Of a DNA stretch of 64,000 nucleotides, positions 14,877 to 26,039 are shown piece after piece (the stretch's first letter is position 1; every line of letters starts with the position of its first letter). Source of the DNA: Geodermatophilus poikilotrophus (lineage in GTDB: Bacteria; Actinomycetota; Actinomycetes; Mycobacteriales; Geodermatophilaceae); the NCBI RefSeq assembly GCF_900111455.1, contig NZ_FOIE01000005.1, forward strand, positions 372,001 through 436,000. Direction: 5' to 3'. A program made the translations under genes and the position numbers. The notes under the pieces are model-generated. The model worked only from the letters and a program-made list of their open reading frames with translations, was not told the DNA's origin and searched no databases.

Positions 14877-15854
<978 letters not shown>

Positions 15855-15945: not shown

Positions 15946-17589
15946 ATGGGCCGCCACGCCGACACCTCTGCCTCGCGCCGGTCGCTGCAGCTGACGCCGC
16001 AGGTGCTGATCGCGCTGGCGGTGGCCGCGGTGGTGCTGCTGGCCGGTGGCATCACCGTGTGGGCGATGAACGCGGGGGACGGCGACTGCGAGAGCACCGC
16101 GGTGGTACGGCTCGCCGTCGCCCCCGAACTCGTACCCGTCGCCGAGCAGGTGCTCACCGGCGCCGAGGGCCTTCGTCCCGAGGACTGCGCGTCCGCCGAG
16201 GTGACCGCGCAGCAGCCGGTGCAGACCGTGGGCGACCTGGGCGCGCTGGATGCCGCGGACCTGCCGCACCTGTGGGTGCCCGACTCCTCGCTGTGGGTGG
16301 CCCGCGCCGGGGACGCCGCGCTGGAGAGCACCGGATCGGTCGCCACCTCCCCCGTGGTGCTGGCCACCAGCCGCGCGGCCGTGGACGCGCTGGGCTGGAC
16401 CGACGCGGCGCCGGGGTGGGGTGCGGCGCTGGTCAGCCAGCAGGGCATCGCCGTCCCGGACCTGGCGACCAGCGCCGAGGCCCTCGCCGCGCTGGGCGCA
16501 GTGCGGACGTCGCTGGGCGGCGGCGAGGACGCCGACAACGCCGTGGTGCAGGCGGTGCTCGCGGCCGAGCGCGGACCGTCGGTCTCGCCGGCCGACGCGC
16601 TGACCGCCGGCCGCGAGGGCGCGGTCGATGCGCCGCTGGTGCCGGTCAGCGAGCAGGAGGTGTGGTCGGCCAACGCCGACGCGGAGGACCCGCAGCTGGT
16701 GGCCGTCTACCCGGCGGAGGGCTCGCCAGGGCTGGACTACCCGCTGGTGCGGGTCGGCACCGCCGCCGCCACCGACGCCGCCGCCGTGGACGCCGCCGTG
16801 CGGGCGCTCACCTCGGACGCCGCGCGGTCCGCCGTCATCGAGGCCGGTTTCCGCGATGCCGACGGCACCGCGCCGGCCGGCGCGGAGGCGGCGGGGATCC
16901 GCGAGGCCGCCCCGCAGGCCCTGCAGCTCGACCCCGCCGGGGTGCAGGCGCTGCTGGCGCAGCTGTCGGAGCTGGCCGCGCCGTCCCGGATCCTCACCGT
17001 CTTCGACGTCTCCACCTCGATGGAGGCCCCGGCCGGCGACGGCACCCGGGCCACGCTCGCCCGGGACGCCGCCAAGAGCACGCTCACGCTGGTGCCGGGC
17101 AACTTCGCGCTCGGGCTGTGGTTCTTCGCCGCCGAGCTGGACGGCGAGCGCGACTGGACCGAGGTGGTGCCCACGCGGCAGCTCGAGGCACAGGTCGAGG
17201 GCACCGTCCAGCGGGACCTGCTCGACCAGGAGCTCGACACCATCCCCGCCCGGCTCAGCCCCGGCGGCACCGGCCTGTACGACACCACGCTGGACGCGGT
17301 GCGGGCGGCGCGCGCGGACTTCGACCCGCGCGCGGTCAACAGCGTGCTGGTGGTGACCGACGGGACGAACGAGGACAGCCAGGGCGTGGACCTCGACGAG
17401 CTGCTGGACACGCTGCGCGGCGAGGCCGACCCCGACCGGCCGATCAAGGTCATCGGTGTCGCGCTCGGCCCGGACGCCGACCTGGGTGCCCTCGAGCAGA
17501 TCGCGGACGTGACCGGCGGCGCGGCCTACTCCGCGGTCGACCCGACGGACCTGCAGACCGTCCTGTTCGACGCCCTCCGGCAGCGCTGA
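15946..17589 (+). CDS. Membrane-anchored VWA protein with substrate-binding-like N-terminus
   Basis: 547 aa. A single N-terminal transmembrane helix (about 19-43) anchors an extracellular protein. The middle (about 50-330) looks like a diverged periplasmic-binding fold (VRLAVAPELVPVAEQVL, then LPHLWVPDSSLWVARAG). The C-terminal third is a von Willebrand A domain with MIDAS motif DVSTS (Asp354, Ser356, Ser358) and VVTDGTNEDSQG. Such actinobacterial fusions are probably extracellular binding or adhesion proteins; the ligand is unknown. ATG 15946 follows GGGGGAG. A TACTGT box at 15890-15895 may be its -10. Confidence 0.88.
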   Translation: MGRHADTSASRRSLQLTPQVLIALAVAAVVLLAGGITVWAMNAGDGDCESTAVVRLAVAPELVPVAEQVLTGAEGLRPEDCASAEVTAQQPVQTVGDLGALDAADLPHLWVPDSSLWVARAGDAALESTGSVATSPVVLATSRAAVDALGWTDAAPGWGAALVSQQGIAVPDLATSAEALAALGAVRTSLGGGEDADNAVVQAVLAAERGPSVSPADALTAGREGAVDAPLVPVSEQEVWSANADAEDPQLVAVYPAEGSPGLDYPLVRVGTAAATDAAAVDAAVRALTSDAARSAVIEAGFRDADGTAPAGAEAAGIREAAPQALQLDPAGVQALLAQLSELAAPSRILTVFDVSTSMEAPAGDGTRATLARDAAKSTLTLVPGNFALGLWFFAAELDGERDWTEVVPTRQLEAQVEGTVQRDLLDQELDTIPARLSPGGTGLYDTTLDAVRAARADFDPRAVNSVLVVTDGTNEDSQGVDLDELLDTLRGEADPDRPIKVIGVALGPDADLGALEQIADVTGGAAYSAVDPTDLQTVLFDALRQR

Positions 17590-17661: not shown

Positions 17662-18621
17662 TCAGGTCCGGGTCAGCAGGTCGTCGAGCGCAGCGACGAC
17701 CTCCTCGACGGTCACCTCTGCCAGCGCCGGGTCGAGCTCGGTGCCCCACGGGTCCCCGGTCCCGTCGCCGTGCCAGAGGACGACGTGCAGTGGCCCGTGC
17801 GCCCCGGCCCTGAGCGGTGGCCCCCACAGCGCCGGGGACACCGGGCCGAACAGCACCACCGAGGGACGGCGGTAGGCGGTCGCCAGGTGCGCCAGGCCGG
17901 TGTCGCCGCTGACCACGACGCGGGCCCCGGCGACCACCGCGGCCAGCTCGAGCGTCGTCGTCCGCCCGGCCAGGACGCACCCCTGCCCGAGGCCGGCGCC
18001 CTCGGCCACCGCCCGCGCGAGGGGCACCTCGGCCGGGCCCCCGGTGATCCGCACGTCCAGCCCGCGCGCGGCCAGGTTCCGTGCCACGGCGGCGAACCGG
18101 TCGGCGGGCCAGCGCCGTCCGGGGAACGCCGCGCCCGGGTGCACCAGCGCCACACCGGCCGGGGCGGGCGGAGGCACGGAGGGCACGGCGAGGTCGAGCG
18201 CGTCGGGGTCGGCGTCCACGCCCAGTCCCTCGGCGACCAGCCGGCACCAGCGCCGCACCTCGTGCTCGTCGGGGTACCAGGTCGGCCCGGGGTAGCCGGG
18301 GCTGTCGAAGGTCAGCAGCCGGTGCGGGTGCAGGTCGGCGACCACGACGTGCGAGGCCGGCCCCTTGCCGTGCAGGTCGACGGCGAGCTCGGGCGGCGGG
18401 CCCGACCAGTCCAGCGGCTCCAGCTCGCGGGCGGGCAGCACCTCGTCGACCGCGTCGACCAACGAGGCCAGCGGCTCGAGCGCCGCGGTGGTGGCCAGCA
18501 CCAGCCGGTGGCCGGGGACGGCCGCCCGCACGGCGCGGATCGCGGGCACGCCGGTGAGCAGGTCGCCGAGCCCCAGCGGCCGGAGTACCACCGCGGCTGG
18601 CCGCTCCCCCGGGCCTGTCAA
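17662..18621 (-). CDS. Glycosyltransferase family 9 (heptosyltransferase-like)
   Basis: GT-B fold transferase of about 319 aa, likely using ADP-heptose made by the neighbouring enzymes. N-terminal VVLRPLGLGDLLTGVPAIRA, central GVALVHPGAAFPGRRWPADRF, and C-terminal VVSGDTGLAHLATAYRRPSV are GT9 landmarks. The start is uncertain: TTG 18621 (MTGPGERPAAVVLRP) or GTG 18591, which has a GGGGGAG upstream. Last gene of a seven-gene operon; the gap to hldE holds a gene-end repeat, unlike the 4-bp overlaps elsewhere in the operon. The acceptor is unknown because no LPS core is expected. Confidence 0.87.
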   Translation of the reverse strand: MTGPGERPAAVVLRPLGLGDLLTGVPAIRAVRAAVPGHRLVLATTAALEPLASLVDAVDEVLPARELEPLDWSGPPPELAVDLHGKGPASHVVVADLHPHRLLTFDSPGYPGPTWYPDEHEVRRWCRLVAEGLGVDADPDALDLAVPSVPPPAPAGVALVHPGAAFPGRRWPADRFAAVARNLAARGLDVRITGGPAEVPLARAVAEGAGLGQGCVLAGRTTTLELAAVVAGARVVVSGDTGLAHLATAYRRPSVVLFGPVSPALWGPPLRAGAHGPLHVVLWHGDGTGDPWGTELDPALAEVTVEEVVAALDDLLTRT

Positions 18622-18623
18622 CG

Positions 18624-18680
18624 CCCCGTTCCGGGTCCCGCGCCGAGCCTGCGACGCGTGGGGGGCAGCGGGGTCCTCCC
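18624..18680 (-). repeat. Gene-end repeat (hldE copy)
   Basis: Begins immediately after the hldE stop codon (TGAGGGAGGACCCCG) and contains CGCG-TCGCAGGCTCGG-CGCG, the shared loop core between 4-bp arms. It lies between two genes of the same operon, so it may reduce rather than end transcription. Confidence 0.65.
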
Positions 18681-20066
18681 TCACACCCGTGAGCGCTCCA
18701 CCAGGGCGGTCGTGGAGTGCCCGTCGAGGTAGGGCAGCACGACGGCCTGGCCACCCCAGCGCCGCAGCACGGCGGCCTCGGGCAGGTCGGCGCCGGCGTA
18801 GTCCCCGCCCTTGGCCCACACGTCCGGGCGCAGCCGGCCGATCACCTCGGCCGGGGTGTCCTCGTCGAAGACGACGACGGCGTCGACGAACTCCAGCGCC
18901 TCGAGCACCCGCGCCCGGTCTGCGGCGGTCACCAGCGGCCGCGACGGGCCCTTGAGCCGGCGCACCGAGTCGTCGGAGTTGATGCACACCACCAGGCAGT
19001 CGCCCAGCCCGCGGGCGGCCCGCAGCGTCGCCACGTGGCCGGGGTGCAGCAGGTCGAAGCAGCCGCCGGTCGCGACCACCGTCCCGCCCGCCGCGCGGAC
19101 CCGGGCGATCACCCCGTCGGCCCCGGGCTCGGTGACCACGTCCGGCTCGACGGCGTCCCACGCCGAGGCGCCACCGCGGGCCACGAAGCCCCCGGCGAAC
19201 GCGACCGCGGCCGCGACCGCCTCGCCGGTCACCGCCCCCTCCGCCAGGGCCAGCGCTGCCGCGGCGGCGAACGCGTCCCCGGCTCCGCACGGGTCCCCGC
19301 CGGTCACCGGGGTCGCGGGCACCACCATCGGCGCGCCCTCGCCGTAGGAGAGCAGCGCACCGCGGGCGCCGAGGGTCACCGAGACCGCGCCGACGCCCCA
19401 GTGCCGGATCAGCGCCTCGGCCCGCGCGCCGACCGCCGCCAGGCCCTCGCCCTCGGCGGCCACCCCGGCCGACGAGGCCACGCGGGCGGCCTCGGCGCCG
19501 TTGGGCGTCACCAGCCGCGCGTTGGGCACCGGGTCCGCGCCACGCGGGTGCGGGTCCCAGACCACCGGCCCACCGGCCTCGGCCAGCACCGCGCGGACGG
19601 CGGGGTCGGCCGTCGTCCCCCGGCCGTAGTCGGCGACGAGCACCGCGGCGGCGTCGCGCAGGACGGCAGCCGCCTCGTCGGGCAGCGTGCCCAGCTCGGC
19701 CACCGGGGCGCCGCTGTCGATGCGCGCCACCGAGTGGTCGCCCACCCGGACCCGGCGCTTGACGGCCGTCCCGCCGGTCGCCGGGATCTCCACCAACCGC
19801 ACCCGGCCGGCGAGCAGCGCGCGCAGCCGGTCGGCGTCCGCGTCGTCGGCCATCGGGGTGACCAGCACGACCTCCCGGCGGGTGGCCCGCGCCGCGATGA
19901 CCGCCGCCAGGGCCGCCCCGCCGGGGCGCTCGCGGGTCTCGACGTCCTCGACGACCGGCACCGGCGCGTCGGGGGTGAGCCGCGAGGCCGTCCCGACCAG
20001 GTCGACGTCGAGCAGCGCGTCGCCGACGACGACGATCGCTCCCCCACCCACCCCGGTCGCGCTCAC
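18681..20066 (-). CDS. hldE: Bifunctional heptose-7-P kinase / heptose-1-P adenylyltransferase
   Basis: 461 aa. The N-terminal ribokinase (PfkB) domain has GDALLDVDLVG, PDAPVPVVED, RPGGAALAA, and the catalytic GGDPCGAGDAFAAA; it phosphorylates D-glycero-D-manno-heptose 7-phosphate at C1. The C-terminal nucleotidyltransferase domain has TGGCFDLLHPGHVATLRAAR with the HPGH site and INSDDSVRRLKGPSRPL; it forms ADP-heptose. The length is close to Gram-negative HldE (about 477 aa), and both active sites look intact. GTG 20066 overlaps gmhA by 4 bp. This is a key member of the ADP-heptose pathway in this operon. Confidence 0.95.
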   Translation of the reverse strand: MSATGVGGGAIVVVGDALLDVDLVGTASRLTPDAPVPVVEDVETRERPGGAALAAVIAARATRREVVLVTPMADDADADRLRALLAGRVRLVEIPATGGTAVKRRVRVGDHSVARIDSGAPVAELGTLPDEAAAVLRDAAAVLVADYGRGTTADPAVRAVLAEAGGPVVWDPHPRGADPVPNARLVTPNGAEAARVASSAGVAAEGEGLAAVGARAEALIRHWGVGAVSVTLGARGALLSYGEGAPMVVPATPVTGGDPCGAGDAFAAAAALALAEGAVTGEAVAAAVAFAGGFVARGGASAWDAVEPDVVTEPGADGVIARVRAAGGTVVATGGCFDLLHPGHVATLRAARGLGDCLVVCINSDDSVRRLKGPSRPLVTAADRARVLEALEFVDAVVVFDEDTPAEVIGRLRPDVWAKGGDYAGADLPEAAVLRRWGGQAVVLPYLDGHSTTALVERSRV

Positions 20067-20728
20067 CGGGCGACCCCGAGCCGGGTCTCGGGCACGCGGG
20101 CGGGCTCGGCGAGCACTGCCGCGTCGAAGGCGGCGCAGACCAGGTGCAGCGCGACCAGGTGGCACTCCTGGACGGTCGCCGTCCACGGGGAGTCGATGCA
20201 GACCGCGTCGTCGGCCACGGCGGCCAGCGGGTTGGGTGCCGGGCCGGTCATCGCCAGCACGGTGATGCCGCACTCGCGGGCCCGGCGCGCGGCGGCGACG
20301 GCGTTGGGGCTGCGGCCGGACGTCGACAGCAGCACCAGCACGTCGCCGGCCCGGCCGTGCGCCTCCACCTGGCGGGCGAACAGCTCGTCGGCCGGGTAGT
20401 CGTTGGCGATCGCGGTCAGCGACGAGGTCTCGGCGGTCAGGCAGATCGCGGAGAACGGCGGCCGGTCGGCCCGGTAGCGGCCGACCAGCTCGGCGGTCAG
20501 GTGCTGCGCCTGGGCCGCGCTGCCCCCGTTGCCCGCCGCGAGCAGCCGGCCGCGGCTCTCCCCGCAGAGCACGTCGGCGATGAGCCGGCCCCAGCGGTCC
20601 AGCGCGTCGAGCTGCCCGTTCAGCGACCCCAGCGCGGCGGCCAGCGACGCGACGTGGTCCGCGCCGGTGAGGTGCGTGCACGTGTCGGGCGAGACGACCT
20701 CGCCGGCGGAGTGCGGCGGAACGGTCAT
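20063..20728 (-). CDS. gmhA: Phosphoheptose isomerase
   Basis: 221-aa SIS-domain isomerase converting sedoheptulose 7-phosphate to D-glycero-D-manno-heptose 7-phosphate, the first step toward ADP-heptose. Signatures are LLAAGNGGSAAQAQHLTAELVGRY near the N-terminus, LVLLSTSGRSPNAVAAA in the sugar-phosphate loop, and a C-terminal VQECHLVALHLVCAAFD with Glu and His. ATG 20728 overlaps the upstream glycosyltransferase by 4 bp; the stop overlaps hldE. The N-terminus is about 25 residues longer than typical GmhA. Confidence 0.94.
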   Translation of the reverse strand: MTVPPHSAGEVVSPDTCTHLTGADHVASLAAALGSLNGQLDALDRWGRLIADVLCGESRGRLLAAGNGGSAAQAQHLTAELVGRYRADRPPFSAICLTAETSSLTAIANDYPADELFARQVEAHGRAGDVLVLLSTSGRSPNAVAAARRARECGITVLAMTGPAPNPLAAVADDAVCIDSPWTATVQECHLVALHLVCAAFDAAVLAEPARVPETRLGVAR

Positions 20729-21951
20729 CGGGCGGCCTCCACGGGGCTCCTGTCGCTGCCATCGGTGCGTACCGGGCCGGCCAGGACCTGCCGGTAGACG
20801 GTGTCGGTGTCGGCGACCACGCGGGCCCACCGGTACCGGTGGCGGGCGCGCCGCACCCCGGCCGTGCCGTAGGCCGCACGGCGGGCGTCGTCGGCCAGCA
20901 GCGCGGCGAGCACCTCGCCGAGCCTGGCCGGGTCCCGCGCGGGGACCAGGTCGCCGGTGACCCCGTCGGCGACGGAGTCCTGCAGCCCGCCGACCGCGGT
21001 GGCGACCACCGGGCGGCCGCAGGCCATGGCCTCCAGCGGGGTGATGCCGAACGGCTCGTACCAGGGCACGGCCAGCACGACGTCGGCCGAGCGGATCCAC
21101 GCCGGGACGTCGGCGCGGGCCACCGCGCCCGTGAACACCAGCCGGTCCGCCACCCCGAGGGAGGCGGCGACCGCGCGCAGCCGGCGCACCTCGGCGTCGC
21201 CGTCCAGCTGCGCGGCCGGAGGCCCGCCGACGACGACCAGCTCGGCGTCGGGGACGGCGGCCAGCGCGCGGACGGCGTCCTCCTGCCCCTTGCGCTCGAC
21301 CAGCCGGCCGAGGACGAGCAGCCGCTTCCGGTCGCCGCGCGGCGCGACCGGTCCGCGCGGGGTGAACACCGTGGTGTCCACCCCGCAGGGCACGACCGTG
21401 ACGCGGTCGCTGTCCAGGCCGAGCCGGCGCAGCTCGAAGACCTCGTCGGAGCAGGTGGCGACCACGTGGCGAAGGGTCCGGCACAGCGACCGCTCCAGCT
21501 CGACGCGCTGCGGCGGCGAGGTGTCGGCGGCACCCTGGTGGCGCCGCTTGACCGAGCCGAGTGCGTGGAAGGTCTGCACGACCGGGATCGCCCCTGCGGC
21601 GGCGACCGCGGCCAGCCCGCTCATCCAGAAGTGCGCGTGCACCAGGTCCGGGGGCCGCTGCGCCCACTCGCGGCGCAGCACCGACGCGAACTCGGGCATG
21701 TGCTGCAGCAGGTCGTCCTTGGGCAGCACCCGGGCCGGCCCCGCGGTCACGTGCGCGACGTCGTAGCCGTCGGCGGTGGTCACGCGGTCGGGCTGGTCCG
21801 GGTCCTCCCGGCGGGTGTGCACGGTCACCGCGTGCCCGCGGCGGGCCAGGCCCGCGGCGAGCGCGGCGACGTGCACGTTCTGCCCGCCGGCGTCCACTCC
21901 GCCGATCGCGGCGAGCGGGCTCGCGTGCTCGCTGACCAGGTCGATGATCAT
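20725..21951 (-). CDS. Glycosyltransferase family 4
   Basis: 408-aa GT-B enzyme. The N-terminus has the donor-domain glycine loop AIGGVDAGGQNVHVAALA, similar to sucrose-phosphate-synthase-like and MshA-like GT4 proteins, followed by LVHAHFWMSG. The C-terminal half has RLLVLGRLVERKGQEDAVRA and the retaining E-x7-E region PWYEPFGITPLEAMACGRPVV. ATG 21951 overlaps the preceding gene by 4 bp. It is the fourth gene of the heptose operon. Sugar and acceptor are not inferable. Confidence 0.91.
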   Translation of the reverse strand: MIIDLVSEHASPLAAIGGVDAGGQNVHVAALAAGLARRGHAVTVHTRREDPDQPDRVTTADGYDVAHVTAGPARVLPKDDLLQHMPEFASVLRREWAQRPPDLVHAHFWMSGLAAVAAAGAIPVVQTFHALGSVKRRHQGAADTSPPQRVELERSLCRTLRHVVATCSDEVFELRRLGLDSDRVTVVPCGVDTTVFTPRGPVAPRGDRKRLLVLGRLVERKGQEDAVRALAAVPDAELVVVGGPPAAQLDGDAEVRRLRAVAASLGVADRLVFTGAVARADVPAWIRSADVVLAVPWYEPFGITPLEAMACGRPVVATAVGGLQDSVADGVTGDLVPARDPARLGEVLAALLADDARRAAYGTAGVRRARHRYRWARVVADTDTVYRQVLAGPVRTDGSDRSPVEAAR

Positions 21952-22940
21952 CGCGTCACCTCTCCGAGGAGTCGGTCCCAGTCGGTGAGGAACCGGGGAA
22001 GCCCGTACCGCTCCAGCGCGGCGGCGCGTGCCGCCTTGCCGGCCAGCCGGGCGGCGTCCTCGTCGTGCAGGTAGGTGCGGACGGCGTCCCACAGGACGCC
22101 GGGCCGGGTGGAGAGCACGCCGGCCTCGGCCGGCACCGCCTCCACCGCCTCGGTGGTCGCCAGGGCGACCACCGGCAGGCCCAGGTGCATCGCCTCGAGC
22201 AGGGAGAGCCCGAGGGAGGTCCACCGGACCGGGTGCACGTAGACCCGGCGGCGGGCCAGCTCGGTGTGCATCGCGGCCTGCGGCGGGTCGTCGTGCAGCG
22301 CGACCCGGCCGGGGTCGAGGCCGTAGCGCTCGTGCAGCCCGGCCAGCCCCATGCCGAACACGTCGACCGGCGCGACCGCGGCCAGCCCGGGCAGCAGGTC
22401 GGCGCCGACCGTCCGGCCGCGGCGGACCGGCTCGTTGGTGACGACGGCGGCCCGCGCCAGCTCGCCGGTCCAGCGCTCGCCGGGGTCGACGATGCCGTGC
22501 TCGACGACCGTCGTCGGCGCCCGGCCGTTGTCGTAGAAGAGCTGGTTGAAGTGCGTGACGTGCACGATCGGGATGTCCGAGCGGTCGGCCAGCGGGTGCC
22601 GGGTGTGCGGCACCGGCCCGTCGCCGGGCTCCAGACCCGGCGCGTTGTGCTCGAGGAAGACCGCGGGCAGGTCCCGTCCGGGCTCGCGGCCCAGCCACTC
22701 GCGCACCAGGTCCAGGTCGCGGGTCCGCTGCAGCACCACCACGTCGACACCGCCGTCGACGCTGATCTCCCTCAGCTGCTCCGGGGTCACCTCGCGGGCC
22801 GATGCCGGCCAGTCCCAGGTGCGCGCCCGCCCGAGCCCGTCCGGGCCGCGGTCCGGGGTGACCGGGATGAGGTACTCGTGCCGCCCCTGGACGAACGCCG
22901 TCGTCCACGAGCCGTGCACGTGCCACAGCAGGACCCTCAC
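21948..22940 (-). CDS. Glycosyltransferase (GT-B, group 1 type)
   Basis: 330 aa, starting with GTG 22940 as VRVLLWHVHGSWTTAFVQG. The N-terminal half is diverged, with VFLEHNAPGLEPGDGPVPHT and HVTHFNQLFYDNG. The C-terminal half has a recognisable group-1 acceptor loop RVYVHPVRWTSLGLSLLEAM followed by HLGLPVVALATTEAVEAVP. It is coupled at both ends by 4-bp overlaps inside the heptose operon. The substrate is unknown. Confidence 0.87.
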   Translation of the reverse strand: MRVLLWHVHGSWTTAFVQGRHEYLIPVTPDRGPDGLGRARTWDWPASAREVTPEQLREISVDGGVDVVVLQRTRDLDLVREWLGREPGRDLPAVFLEHNAPGLEPGDGPVPHTRHPLADRSDIPIVHVTHFNQLFYDNGRAPTTVVEHGIVDPGERWTGELARAAVVTNEPVRRGRTVGADLLPGLAAVAPVDVFGMGLAGLHERYGLDPGRVALHDDPPQAAMHTELARRRVYVHPVRWTSLGLSLLEAMHLGLPVVALATTEAVEAVPAEAGVLSTRPGVLWDAVRTYLHDEDAARLAGKAARAAALERYGLPRFLTDWDRLLGEVTR

Positions 22941-23938
22941 GCGGCCATCACCTTCTCCACAGCGGCGACGACGTCGGCGGCGGTCACCGACGCGAGACAG
23001 GGGTGGCCGGGCACCGGGCACTCCCGGGCCCGGGTCAGCCGGCAGGCGGCGTCCTGGTCGCCGAGCAGCACGGTCGGTACGCCGTAGGGCGCCCACCGGA
23101 CGGCCGGCACGACCGGGGAGAAGAGCGAGACGACCGGCGTGCCGACGGCGGCGGCCAGGTGGGCCGGGCCGGTGTTGCCGACGACCACCGCGGCCGCCCC
23201 CTCCAGCACGGCGGCCAGCTCGGCCAGGCCCAGCGCGCCACCGAGGTCGACGCCGCGGGTACCGGCGACGGCCGCGGTGAGCGCCCGCTCGCCCGGCCCG
23301 CCGGTGACCAGCACCCGGTGACCGGCGTCGGCCAGCGCCTCGACCGCCTCGGCGCAGCGGTGCGCCGGCCAGGCCCGGGCGGGGACCGAGGCGCCCGGGT
23401 GGACGACGACGTGACCCGGTTCGGGCGCGACCGGGGGCAGGGGCCGGCGCACGGCGAGCCGGCCGTCGTCGCCGGCCGGCAGGTCGAAGCCCGCGGCGCG
23501 GGCGAGGGACAGGGCGCGCTCGGGTTCGGGGAGGTCGTCGTCCACCCGGTGGCGGACGTCGAGCAGCGACCCGGGGTAGTCGACGCTGATCGCGGAGACC
23601 CGCCGCACGCCGGCGGTGCGCAGCACCAGCGCCAGGGGCAGGGGCGACTGGTGGAAGGACGTGGAGACGACGGCCTCGTCGGGGGCGAGGGCCCGGATCC
23701 GCTCGGTCAGCCCGGCGAGGTCGTCCGCGTCGACCGGCGGCGGGTCGCCGAGGATCCAGGGGCAGGCCCAGGTCTCCACCTCGTCGACGCCGGGCAGCAG
23801 CCGGGCCGCCTCGGCGCCGGCCGGGCCGGCGAGGAACACGACGCGGTCGGCGCCGGCGGCCACGGCGCGCACCAGCGGCCCCTGGACCAGGACGTCGCCG
23901 ACCGAGTCCAGCCGCGCGACCAGGACCGTGCGGCTCAC
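22937..23938 (-). CDS. Glycosyltransferase family 9 (heptosyltransferase-like)
   Basis: 333-aa GT9 protein. The N-terminus TVLVARLDSVGDVLVQGPLVR is the classic family start; HVVVHPGASVPARAWPAHR and VVGNTGPAHLAAAVGTPVVSLF are the C-terminal donor-site motifs. A cluster of cysteines near the end (CRLTRARECPVPGHPC) is typical of WaaF-like proteins. It starts at GTG 23938 with a 4-bp overlap with the GT2-GmhB gene. Second of two GT9 enzymes in the operon, so at least two heptose transfers are plausible. Confidence 0.92.
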   Translation of the reverse strand: MSRTVLVARLDSVGDVLVQGPLVRAVAAGADRVVFLAGPAGAEAARLLPGVDEVETWACPWILGDPPPVDADDLAGLTERIRALAPDEAVVSTSFHQSPLPLALVLRTAGVRRVSAISVDYPGSLLDVRHRVDDDLPEPERALSLARAAGFDLPAGDDGRLAVRRPLPPVAPEPGHVVVHPGASVPARAWPAHRCAEAVEALADAGHRVLVTGGPGERALTAAVAGTRGVDLGGALGLAELAAVLEGAAAVVVGNTGPAHLAAAVGTPVVSLFSPVVPAVRWAPYGVPTVLLGDQDAACRLTRARECPVPGHPCLASVTAADVVAAVEKVMAA

Positions 23939-25434
23939 CACCCACCCGCCAGGACCCGCTCGACCGCCTCGGTGATCGTCGCTGCGCGGCGGGGTGCCGC
24001 CTCGACCTCGGCCCGGCGCGTGACCGGCGTCGGCACGAGGATCCCCGACGCGCCGGCGGCGGCCGCGGCCTCGACGTCGGCCCCGATGTCGCCGACGACC
24101 ACGCAGCGGGCGGGGTCGACGTCGAGCTCGGCGCAGGCGGCCTTTACCATCCCGGGCGCGGGCTTGCGGCAGGTGCAGCCGTCGTCCGGCCCGTGCGGGC
24201 AGACCTGGACGGTGTCGAAGGGACCGAGCAGCTCGTCGAGGCGGGCCATGCAGGCGTCGACCTGCGCGCGGGTGATCAGCCCGCGGGCCACACCGGACTG
24301 GTTGCTCACCACGCCGACCCGGACGCCGCGGGCGCGCAGCGCGTCGACGGCCTCGCGGGCCCCGGGCACCGGCTTCACCAGCGCCGGGTCGCCGTTGTAG
24401 GGGTAGTCGCGCACCAGGGTGCCGTCGCGGTCGAACAGCACCAGGTCGGGCAGCCCGCGCCAGGGTCGCACCCGCCGGTGCTGCACCGCGCCGCGGAGGA
24501 AGTGCCAGGTGGCCAGCGGCGGGATCAGCGCGCTGGTGGCGAGCATGGTGCCGACCTCGGCCCGGTCGCGCGGGCCGGGGGCGATCCGCGCCCAGGCGAA
24601 CTCGCCGGTGCCGGCCGCCCAGGCCGCGGCGGCGCCGAGCGCGGCGCGTGGCCGCCGGGCGGCGGCGAGGCCGACGGCGGCCAGCCCGGCGGCGGTGACG
24701 GCCAGGTGCCGCGGCCGGCGGCCCAGCGGGGCGTCGGCGCGGTCGCGCCAGCCGGGGCCGTGCAGCCGCCGCATGAGGACGTCGTCGGCGTTGCCGGCCT
24801 GCACCCGGACGCTCACCCAGCGGTCGACCGGGCGCACCGGGTGGGTGATCCGGCGCTGACCGCGGACCAGCCGGGCGCCGGTGTCCATGACCCGGAGGGC
24901 CAGGTCGGAGTCCTCGCGGAAGGCGCGGGGGAAGCGCTCGTCGAAGCCGCCGACGGCGGCCAGGGCGGCGCGGCGGTAGGCGAGGTCGGCGGTGATCCAG
25001 GAGCTGGTGGCCAGGCCCGCGGTGCCGCGCTCCCAGTCGGTGGGCCGGCGGTCCGCGGGCAGCGGCACCCCCACCCGGCCCTGGCTGCCGGCGACGTCGG
25101 CCGGCAGGTCGGAGAGGTCCTCGGCCAGCCGCCGGTACCAGTCGGGGTCGGGGACGACGTCGTCGTCGAGGAAGGCCACCCACTCGGTGCGCACGCTGCG
25201 CCAGCCGAGGTTGCGCGCGCGGGCGGGGCCACCGCCGCCGGTGCGCACCACGCGCAGGGGTGGCAGGCCGGGCCGCGCCGGCCTCAGCGGTTCCCCGGCG
25301 GGCCGGTCGTCGACGAGGACCAGCTCGGCCGGACGCGGCCCGGGGGCCTCCGCGAGGGCGTCGAGCAGCACGTCCAGGGACGGCCGGCCGACGGTCGGCA
25401 CGACCACGGAGCACTGCTCGATCCCCACCTGCAT
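23935..25434 (-). CDS. GT2 glycosyltransferase fused to heptose-bisphosphate phosphatase (GmhB)
   Basis: 499-aa two-enzyme fusion. Residues 1-230: family-2 glycosyltransferase with SVVVPTVGRPSLDVLLDAL, FLDDDVVPDPDWY (DXD) and an RAFREDSDLALRV acceptor motif. About 235-320: hydrophobic segments that may anchor it to the membrane. About 330-499: HAD-IIIA phosphatase with DRDGTLV, VVSNQSGVARG, the zinc loop CPHGPDDGCTC followed by RKP, and VVGDIGADV, all features of GmhB. It removes the 7-phosphate of heptose 1,7-bisphosphate. First gene of the operon, 33 bp downstream of a palindromic promoter motif. The fusion may channel heptose supply to transfer. Confidence 0.92.
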   Translation of the reverse strand: MQVGIEQCSVVVPTVGRPSLDVLLDALAEAPGPRPAELVLVDDRPAGEPLRPARPGLPPLRVVRTGGGGPARARNLGWRSVRTEWVAFLDDDVVPDPDWYRRLAEDLSDLPADVAGSQGRVGVPLPADRRPTDWERGTAGLATSSWITADLAYRRAALAAVGGFDERFPRAFREDSDLALRVMDTGARLVRGQRRITHPVRPVDRWVSVRVQAGNADDVLMRRLHGPGWRDRADAPLGRRPRHLAVTAAGLAAVGLAAARRPRAALGAAAAWAAGTGEFAWARIAPGPRDRAEVGTMLATSALIPPLATWHFLRGAVQHRRVRPWRGLPDLVLFDRDGTLVRDYPYNGDPALVKPVPGAREAVDALRARGVRVGVVSNQSGVARGLITRAQVDACMARLDELLGPFDTVQVCPHGPDDGCTCRKPAPGMVKAACAELDVDPARCVVVGDIGADVEAAAAAGASGILVPTPVTRRAEVEAAPRRAATITEAVERVLAGGW

Positions 25435-25523: not shown

Positions 25524-26039
25524 TCAGCGGCGGGTGCGGGCCGCCGCTGAGACGCGGGCGAGGGCGTCGGTCACGACGGGCGCGTCGTCCCCCAGCAGGG
25601 TGAGCAGGTGGGCGACCAGGCCGTCGTGGGTGGGGCGGGCCTCCTCGACCTTGGTCCGCCCGGCCGGGGTGAGCCGGGCGTGCAGCAGCCGCTTGTCCCC
25701 GGAGGAGCGCTCCCGGACGACGTAGCCCTCGGCGACCAGCCGGCTGACGGTGCTGGTCACCCCGGCGCGGGAGATCCCGAGGGCCTCGGCGAGCTCGCCC
25801 ATGGTGGCCCGCTCGCCGGGGGCCTCGGCGATCCGCCGCAGCGCCTCGTACCCGGTGAGCGAGAGGTCGTGCCGGCGGTGCAGCGCCGAGTCGACGCGGC
25901 GGGTGATGCGGTCGTGCACCTGCACGATGCGCAGCCAGGTCTCGGCCGGACCGGGTGCCGCGCCCGGGACGTCGGCCACGTCCCCGGGCACGTGCTCGAC
26001 GGGGAGGTCCGGTGCCAGGGCGTCCTCGGGGCGGGCCAC
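25524..26039 (-). CDS. MarR-family transcriptional regulator
   Basis: 171-aa winged-helix dimer protein. The HTH is visible as GYEALRRIAEAPGERATMGELAEALGI spread over helices 2-3, the recognition helix SRAGVTSTVSRLVAEGYV and the wing RERSSGDKRLLHARLTPAG. The first 30 residues are acidic and Pro-rich. The GTG 26039 start is chosen to keep the dimerisation helix; no strong Shine-Dalgarno is visible. It lies just upstream of, and in the same direction as, the heptose operon (90 bp gap), so control of that operon is possible but not shown. Confidence 0.88.
   Translation of the reverse strand: MARPEDALAPDLPVEHVPGDVADVPGAAPGPAETWLRIVQVHDRITRRVDSALHRRHDLSLTGYEALRRIAEAPGERATMGELAEALGISRAGVTSTVSRLVAEGYVVRERSSGDKRLLHARLTPAGRTKVEEARPTHDGLVAHLLTLLGDDAPVVTDALARVSAAARTRR

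Follow-up and report, generated by a model that had tools for sequence, protein, structure and literature searches.

The seven-gene operon and its predicted ADP-heptose pathway

The window, a 64,000-nt stretch of a contig of Geodermatophilus poikilotrophus, has in its ORF list a run of seven minus-strand ORFs that occupies exactly positions 17662–25434. All six junctions within this run overlap by 4 bp, and from A to G the gene order is a GT2–GmhB fusion, GT9, GT4, GT4, GmhA, HldE and GT9. Closely similar gene sets, in which HldE is 48–95% identical, recur across the class, so the arrangement is more than chance, and the ADP-heptose operon that an earlier note had proposed for this stretch is confirmed as real. 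That account placed GmhA, HldE and GmhB together in one operon with 4-bp overlaps, along with two GT9 enzymes and five transferase activities, all of which stands: the three enzyme families keep their key active-site residues, Pfam assigns both genes B and G to Glyco_transf_9, and the figure of five is right if glycosyltransferases were meant (GT2, GT9, GT4, GT4, GT9). It was correct as far as it went but overlooked the fusion of GmhB to GT2, the commonness of the operon, and two partner genes, one UXS-like and the other encoding a carbamoyltransferase at an unlinked site.

Gene A (23935–25434, minus strand, 499 aa) combines, by Pfam, a GT2 domain (residues 9–120) with a HAD phosphatase domain (about residues 330–490). 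The best NCBIfam name for the phosphatase half is GmhB; this half scores below the curated cut-offs (NF006506, 119.9 versus 178 bits; TIGR00213, 65.1 versus 149.6) and over two broader ones (HAD-IIIA, 111.2 versus 44.6; histidinol-phosphatase-domain, 105.6 versus 84.15). Its PDB relatives include the D,D-heptose 1,7-bisphosphate phosphatases 4pnh, 3l8e and 2gmw, the top relative, 3l8h, being labelled a putative HAD hydrolase. Ten residues, covering the HAD Asp pair, the zinc Cys-His-Cys-Cys loop and Arg-Lys, are kept in 98/98 loci, and the HAD half is predicted to be a heptose 1,7-bisphosphate 7-phosphatase. Among loci with both halves, the two are fused in 64 of 65 from Geodermatophilaceae and 14 of 20 distant ones. 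A membrane anchor in gene A was considered and rejected, as a hydropathy scan found no membrane helix (Kyte–Doolittle values over 19 residues never exceed 1.5).

Gene E (20063–20728, minus strand) has a SIS_2 domain and the best NCBIfam name GmhA (sedoheptulose-7-phosphate isomerase), with a score that does not reach the TIGR00441 cut-off (149.4 versus 209.45 bits). Its PDB relatives include 5i01, 2xbl and 2x3y. The zinc-ligand positions (His, Glu, Gln and His), which according to the available text of PMC5705639 are H64, E68, Q175 and H183 in Burkholderia pseudomallei GmhA, are kept in 98/98 loci; two of 30 distant loci (L139 and L141) have no GmhA match. At the position of B. pseudomallei Asp61, which belongs to a water channel, gene E and 70/70 family loci carry Gln, while 28 distant loci carry Gln (12), Glu (15) or Pro (1). 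Asp61 is not taken here as defining GmhA, because the available portions of the same paper (PMC5705639) name the four zinc ligands as fully conserved, with Asp61 not listed among them, and report that the Ala mutant has 6% of its activity left.

Gene F (18681–20066, minus strand) carries PfkB kinase and CTP_transf_like (cytidylyltransferase-like) domains in one protein by Pfam, and its best NCBIfam name is HldE (heptose-7-phosphate kinase and heptose-1-phosphate adenylyltransferase). It passes TIGR02199, the adenylyltransferase-domain model (186.3 versus 181.5), and falls under TIGR02198 (121.4 versus 345) and NF008454 (261 versus 521); TIGR02199 is the sole specific equivalog model passed in the operon, those for GmhA, GmhB, the HldE kinase domain and full-length HldE all failing. 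The motifs are GAGD in the kinase domain and HxGH, KGGDY and STT in the adenylyltransferase domain. Six residues (Gly and Asp of GAGD, two His, Lys and Ser) are kept in 100/100 loci, and one further Arg in 70/70 family loci and 24/30 distant loci. Even though most equivalog cut-offs were missed, the residues kept lead to the prediction that genes E and F encode GmhA and HldE, respectively.

The sub-cut-off scores of GmhB, GmhA and the HldE kinase domain would also suit an operon that makes an NDP-heptose other than ADP-D,D-manno-heptose, such as CDP- or UDP-heptose, another stereoisomer or an alpha-anomer. In many relatives a classical SDR that might alter the sugar lies between HldE and GT9-G, and 25/30 distant relatives have Arg at position 5 of the STT motif, a residue said to permit CTP/UTP use (PMC11461863). 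In the present genome, however, that SDR has no close match, the adenylyltransferase domain of gene F passes the HldE-domain cut-off, and STT position 5 is His, as it is in 70/70 Geodermatophilaceae loci, although Arg is also said not to be strictly required for wider nucleotide use (PMC11461863). A different nucleotide or isomer is thus considered unlikely, and ADP-heptose is retained as the predicted product.

Genes B (22937–23938) and G (17662–18684), both on the minus strand, match PF01075 with 82.4 and 91.9 bits, respectively, against a cut-off of 22. The PDB relatives of gene B are heptosyltransferases and those of gene G are LPS heptosyltransferases I and II, while neither protein reaches the cut-off of any LPS heptosyltransferase model (I, II or III), the best scores being 62.1 versus 170.2 for B and 78.2 versus 185.3 for G. 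GT9-B is present in 68 of 69 HldE-bearing genomes of the class sample versus 2 of 227 others, and from motifs and this co-occurrence both proteins are predicted to use ADP-heptose as donor. A GTG at 18684 gives gene G its 4-bp overlap, with a TTG at 18621 as the alternative start. The third GT9 of the genome, on contig C7, is unlinked to the operon and was set aside as a candidate member of the system. Gene C (21948–22940, minus strand) has by sequence a GT4 match in its C-terminal part only, but its AlphaFold model (mean pLDDT 90.6) matches the structures of BshA, PimB' and TarM at 13–16% identity, indicating a divergent GT4-fold glycosyltransferase. Gene D (20725–21951, minus strand) is a GT4 glycosyltransferase by Pfam, the nearest MshA model, TIGR03449, being missed (227.8 versus 462.5 bits).

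Absence of HldD and LpxC

The earlier statement that no HldD epimerase is present was borne out by a whole-genome search, in which nothing scored over the curated cut-off (best 109.8 versus 274.6 bits); the candidates were five sub-cut-off SDRs, one of them the UXS-like gene described below. The classical SDR of relatives was rejected as the missing epimerase of this genome, where its 22 matches reach at best 40% identity. LpxC, for lipid A, was not found in the genome by a search that was positive in 4 of 14 control genomes, in agreement with the expected lack of LPS. A role in LPS core biosynthesis was rejected, there being neither HldD over cut-off nor LpxC, and we infer that the heptose is destined for a non-LPS glycan. 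The parts of the earlier interpretation that can be checked by sequence are all supported, including the alignment of catalytic residues, with no loss at the key positions of GmhA, HldE and GmhB, and the survey of synteny, with similar gene sets recurring in the family and the class.

Distribution and partner genes

HldE was found in 26/26 genomes of the genus (83–100% identity), 95/112 of the family (62–100% for full-length matches, some matches being partial) and 69/296 of the class, about a quarter of the sample, with the source genome included in each count; because each genome was scored on a handful of top candidates only, genes may have been missed in some of those counted as lacking them. 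Cassette genes accompany HldE in both family and class relatives, and the operon is no oddity but common in the family and also present in roughly one in four of the class genomes sampled.

Septacidin and hygromycin B obtain their heptose in Streptomyces by a supply route reportedly described by Tang et al. in 2018, and the operon might likewise serve a secondary metabolite such as these heptose antibiotics. The Gram-positive Streptomyces makes and uses ADP-heptose, according to the available text of PMC10221265, just as is proposed here. The genus and family counts, with the same gene set, nevertheless point to a shared family trait and not a scattered cluster, the conserved cassette includes five glycosyltransferases, and a scan of 10 proteins from the window and 10 from distant loci turned up no nucleoside-, aminocyclitol- or other antibiotic-type family, making an antibiotic function very improbable and a glycan the preferred destination of the heptose.

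A gene for a UDP-glucuronate decarboxylase (UXS)-like SDR lies at 14877–15854 on the plus strand, opposite to the operon and 1.8 kb past its end. Aligned along almost its entire length, its product scores 351 bits against human UXS1; four positions that we take to be catalytic (Glu, Tyr, Lys and Ser) are kept in 78/78 loci, whereas the Arg277-equivalent varies in 5/19 distant loci. Of the distant loci, 19 of the 21 that have GT2 contain the gene, against none of the seven that lack it, and its product is predicted to be a UXS-like member of the system. Two nucleotide-sugar dehydrogenase genes of the genome score over the TIGR03026 cut-off and might be the source of UDP-glucuronate for this enzyme.

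A NodU-type carbamoyltransferase is encoded on another contig, adjoining what appear by eye to be RecQ-like and GGDEF/EAL-like frames and outside any glycan cluster. Like known NodU-type O-carbamoyltransferases it has PF02543, with 194.6 bits to the NodU model (under the cut-off of 1000), and here it co-occurs with a heptose cassette; its counterparts in distant loci match PF02543/PF16861. Of 28 such loci, 21 contain the gene, these being exactly the ones with GT2 (21/21 versus 0/7 without). Two genomes among the seven GT2-less loci have a close carbamoyltransferase elsewhere, in the other cassette of one (G307) and some 27 kb outside the extracted region in the other (G360). By tests that ignore shared ancestry, HldE and the carbamoyltransferase are discordant in 7 of 112 family genomes (93 both, 12 neither, 2 HldE only, 5 carbamoyltransferase only), and the class sample (n = 296, E < 1e-190) gave 54 with both, 223 with neither, 15 with HldE only and 4 with carbamoyltransferase only. 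This part is considered optional, since no close carbamoyltransferase occurs in 15 of 69 HldE genomes and one does occur in 4 of the 227 genomes without HldE.

A MarR-type gene (Pfam MarR_2; 25524–26039, minus strand) lies just upstream of the operon across an 89-bp gap and is a possible regulator; matches occur in 52/80 named loci but in 0/10 of those outside Geodermatophilaceae. A neighbour cluster of about 480–535 aa in seven loci is aldehyde dehydrogenase (two members scanned). Several other neighbour clusters run antisense to genes already identified and were treated as probable shadow frames.

A proposed heptose glycan and its relation to known systems

Sequence supports the gene families, active-site residues, operon structure, conservation and co-occurrence on which the following scheme is built. 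GmhA would isomerise sedoheptulose 7-phosphate, the kinase domain of HldE would form the 1,7-bisphosphate, the GmhB half of gene A would take off the 7-phosphate, and the adenylyltransferase domain of HldE would yield ADP-heptose, expected to stay D,D because there is no HldD. The GT9 proteins B and G would transfer heptose, and other sugars would be attached by C, D and the GT2 domain of A. Here and in most relatives, the UXS-like enzyme would provide UDP-xylose or a related sugar for attachment by GT2, and the NodU-type enzyme would carbamoylate the chain. What the scheme says about substrates, the order of the sugars, the site of carbamoylation, the acceptor and where the product is located is what we infer. 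Overall, it is fairly probable that the system makes ADP-heptose and an oligosaccharide that is heptosylated and probably xylosylated and carbamoylated.

Several glycosyltransferases per operon are common in polymer loci, and the heptose could instead end up in an extended polymer (a capsule, an S-layer or exopolysaccharide). The recurrent neighbours that were identified include no flippase, polymerase or ligase, and Wzx, Wzy, ABC exporter and ligase are all missing from the recurrent neighbour families identified in 28 distant loci (10 proteins scanned), although polymer export genes could be unlinked. A polymer seems rather unlikely, and a discrete oligosaccharide or glycolipid is preferred. 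A wider and more tentative suggestion is that the cassette could specify an undescribed glycoconjugate, widespread in Actinomycetia, with an LPS-style heptosyl core and, in most lineages sampled, a carbamoylated pentose added via the UXS/GT2/NodU-type submodule.

If so, many Gram-positive actinobacteria would make a heptose glycan so far unnamed, and the cassette would be a defined gene set for deletion and assay. ADP-heptose is a ligand of the ALPK1 innate immune pathway, and these bacteria would hold a precursor that animal cells sense through it. The proposal would also help to explain what producers use manno-heptose for, a question on which a commentary, in its available text, notes limited studies only (PMC11573728). 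A literature search found no publication on this cassette, nor any linking carbamoyltransferase, heptose and actinobacterial glycosyltransferases, a weak absence given that subscription journals were thinly covered and largely outside its scope. The one paper retrieved for Geodermatophilus and heptose deals, judging by title and abstract, with the microbiota of cancer patients.

The Gram-negative LPS core pathway (GmhA–HldE–GmhB–HldD, WaaC/WaaF) has the three enzyme families, their active-site residues and two GT9 proteins in common with the operon, which differs in having GmhB fused to GT2 and the pathway genes together with two GT4s. The literature already covers NDP-heptose synthesis in actinobacteria: Tang et al. 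in 2022 reportedly described tridomain isomerase/kinase/nucleotidyltransferase synthetases with the same activities. In the present operon, by contrast, GmhA and HldE are encoded by two genes that overlap by 4 bp, while five of 144 loci with both (L047, L050, L052, L053 and L083), from a set in which loci overlap in genomes, have them in one frame.

The operon and its enzymes

Seven ORFs lie on the minus strand, running from 25434 to 17662 with a 4-bp overlap at each of the six junctions. Domain model matches identify these, from the first gene, as a fusion of a GT2 glycosyltransferase with a GmhB-type HAD phosphatase (A, 23935-25434), a GT9 (B, 22937-23938), a GT4-fold enzyme (C, 21948-22940), a GT4 (D, 20725-21951), GmhA (E, 20063-20728), HldE (F, 18681-20066) and another GT9 (G, 17662-18684). 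Upstream, at a distance of 89 bp, is a MarR-type gene; beyond the operon end, the plus strand carries a UDP-glucuronate decarboxylase-like (UXS-like) SDR gene (14877-15854) and one whose product weakly matches VWA (15946-17589). The latter is matched in 64/80 named loci and, in Geodermatophilaceae, separates the operon from the UXS-like gene. The host genome (4.83 Mb, 18 contigs, computed completeness 99.87%) has a third GT9 gene at a separate locus (C7:760865-761416; L001, L169), adjoining a GT4-like stretch.

PDB sequence searches matched E to GmhA structures (5i01, 2xbl, 2x3y), the C-terminal part of A to D,D-heptose 1,7-bisphosphate phosphatases (4pnh, 3l8e, 2gmw), F to heptose 7-phosphate kinase 4e84 and the putative cytidylyltransferase 5x9q, and both G and B to LPS heptosyltransferases. 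Most equivalog cut-offs were not reached in profile searches, as may be expected in a distant lineage. Key residues were compared over 70 Geodermatophilaceae loci and 30 distant loci, the latter comprising 20 further loci hand-picked from 19 of the 69 class genomes with HldE and ten named loci from outside the family; n varies by gene, some loci being cut. The loss of catalytic residues that the earlier note had raised against its own pathway was not seen at the key positions of three enzymes: the Zn ligands of GmhA, and the Asp pair, Zn ligands and Arg-Lys of GmhB, are kept in 98/98 loci, and the GAGD, HxGH, Lys and STT Ser of HldE in 100/100. One departure from the reference is the Asp61 position of GmhA, which is occupied by Gln; PMC5705639 describes Asp61 as a channel residue whose Ala mutant had 6% activity left. 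The GD, HPG, GGPxE and (D/N)TGxxH positions of the GT9s are almost invariant, with Glu replaced by Asp in B of 3/30 distant loci and a few exceptions or unaligned cases in G.

By sequence, C matches GT4 in its C-terminal part only. A structure model built from 26 aligned homologues (mean pLDDT 90.6) matches BshA, PimB' and TarM structures, and so C is, on this model, a GT-B enzyme of GT4 type. For D the nearest model is MshA, at about half of the MshA cut-off. In Candidatus Blastococcus massiliensis (L071:4479-6018), the sole case among 65 family loci, the GT2 and GmhB halves are out of one frame, perhaps through a sequencing error.

Distribution of the cassette

HldE homologues occur in 26/26 genus genomes, 95/112 family genomes (E<=1e-60; 87/96 good-quality ones, some matches being partial) and 69/296 class-sample genomes (E<=1e-40), while GT9-B was found in 70/296 of the last at the same threshold, 68 of them also with HldE. 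These counts take in the window's genome and share genomes with the named loci, so the sets are not independent. Among the best 80 of 186 named loci, D, E, F and G are present in 80, B and GmhB in 79, C in 78 and GT2 in 75. Six of these lack a gene, five of which end at a contig end (L072, L100, L104, L124, L131); C was not found in L136 (20 kb), nor at its usual site between B and D in L124. The closest named loci belong to Geodermatophilus species, own-genome records possibly having been left out of that comparison. Those from outside Geodermatophilaceae are Streptomyces (L123, L125, L128), Actinoallomurus (L127, L132), Virgisporangium (L136) and MAGs labelled Marmoricola (L120), Aeromicrobium (L124), Cellulomonas (L137) and Conexibacter (L131). 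The operon is real and conserved, and most likely functional.

Tridomain NDP-heptose synthetases of actinobacteria were reportedly described by Tang et al. in 2022, and the proteins of 5/144 loci in which E and F share one frame may be of this type, whereas E and F of the window are separate genes. No GmhA match was found between D and HldE in the cassettes of L139 and L141, where the isomerase may be located elsewhere. Within a few kb of the cassette, a further HldE-like gene with about 39% identity to F occurs at L152:13151-14572, adjoining an aldehyde dehydrogenase, and at L153:5334-6740; second copies of about 40–44% identity occur in other class genomes.

A carbamoyltransferase, GT2 and UXS submodule

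Residual ORFs were clustered in 28/30 distant loci. The recurrent neighbours were a carbamoyltransferase of the NodU type (PF02543/PF16861), another GT2, and a classical SDR located between HldE and G. Gene order was compared over all 30 loci; among the 28 of at least 17.5 kb, the carbamoyltransferase is present in 21/21 loci with GT2 and 0/7 without (Fisher 8e-7, ancestry ignored), and the UXS-like gene in 19/21 and 0/7 (Fisher 3e-5, ancestry ignored). Two genomes with GT2-less loci carry a close carbamoyltransferase elsewhere (G307, G360), and the other five have none at E<=1e-80. Since both genes track GT2, the three act as a submodule added to a core made up of GmhB, B, C, D, GmhA, HldE and G.

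The window is of the extended kind, with GT2 fused to GmhB, a UXS-like gene and an unlinked carbamoyltransferase (C15:18603-20267), which shares about 70% identity with its distant-locus counterparts. Across 112 family genomes, HldE and carbamoyltransferase are both present in 93 and both absent in 12, with two HldE only and five carbamoyltransferase only (Fisher 1e-10); completeness is below 90% in six of these seven discordant genomes. Among 296 class genomes the corresponding numbers are 54, 223, 15 and 4 for close carbamoyltransferase homologues (E<1e-190), and 56, 215, 13 and 12 for all matches at E<=1e-80. The operon of the earlier note stands, but the note overlooked two partners, the UXS-like gene and the carbamoyltransferase.

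Predicted product and pathway

The absence of HldD, previously proposed from the window, held when the whole genome was searched with TIGR02197: it matched five SDRs, none above the cut-off, the best scoring 109.8 bits against 274.6. The same model passed its cut-off in 2/14 control genomes. The D,D form is therefore the expected epimer. PMC11461863, which comments on Tang et al. 2024, states that enzymes with Arg at the fifth position of (F/L)XXGXSTT can use CTP and UTP as well, and that this Arg is not strictly required for such use. This position of HldE is Arg in 25/30 distant loci and His in 70/70 Geodermatophilaceae loci and in the window. His may narrow nucleotide use, making ADP-heptose the likeliest product here, while relatives may make other NDP-heptoses besides.

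E, F and the GmhB half of A would convert sedoheptulose 7-phosphate to ADP-D,D-manno-heptose, from which B and G would transfer heptosyl, with C, D and GT2 adding further sugars. UXS would supply xylose, its own substrate perhaps coming from one of two nucleotide-sugar dehydrogenases in the genome, and the C15 enzyme would carbamoylate. The first four steps are predicted from well-defined families with kept sites, and the later ones from co-occurrence. No export gene tied to the cassette was seen. The product may therefore stay inside the cell, be moved by a shared flippase or be linked to a lipid.

Streptomyces uses ADP-heptose for septacidin and hygromycin B, as stated in PMC10221265, and PMC11573728 notes that few studies have shown the function of manno-heptose in producers. 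A literature search found no published account of a heptose/carbamoyl cassette from actinobacteria, a weak negative since most subscription papers lay outside its reach. The chemistry of the operon is known and its setting unusual; the gene set is conserved, the product predicted. Two fragments with equal scores to the NDP-sugar dehydrogenase model lie in opposite orientation at the two ends of a contig of this genome (C13:13-327 and 436919-437233), and are perhaps a repeat that terminates the assembly.
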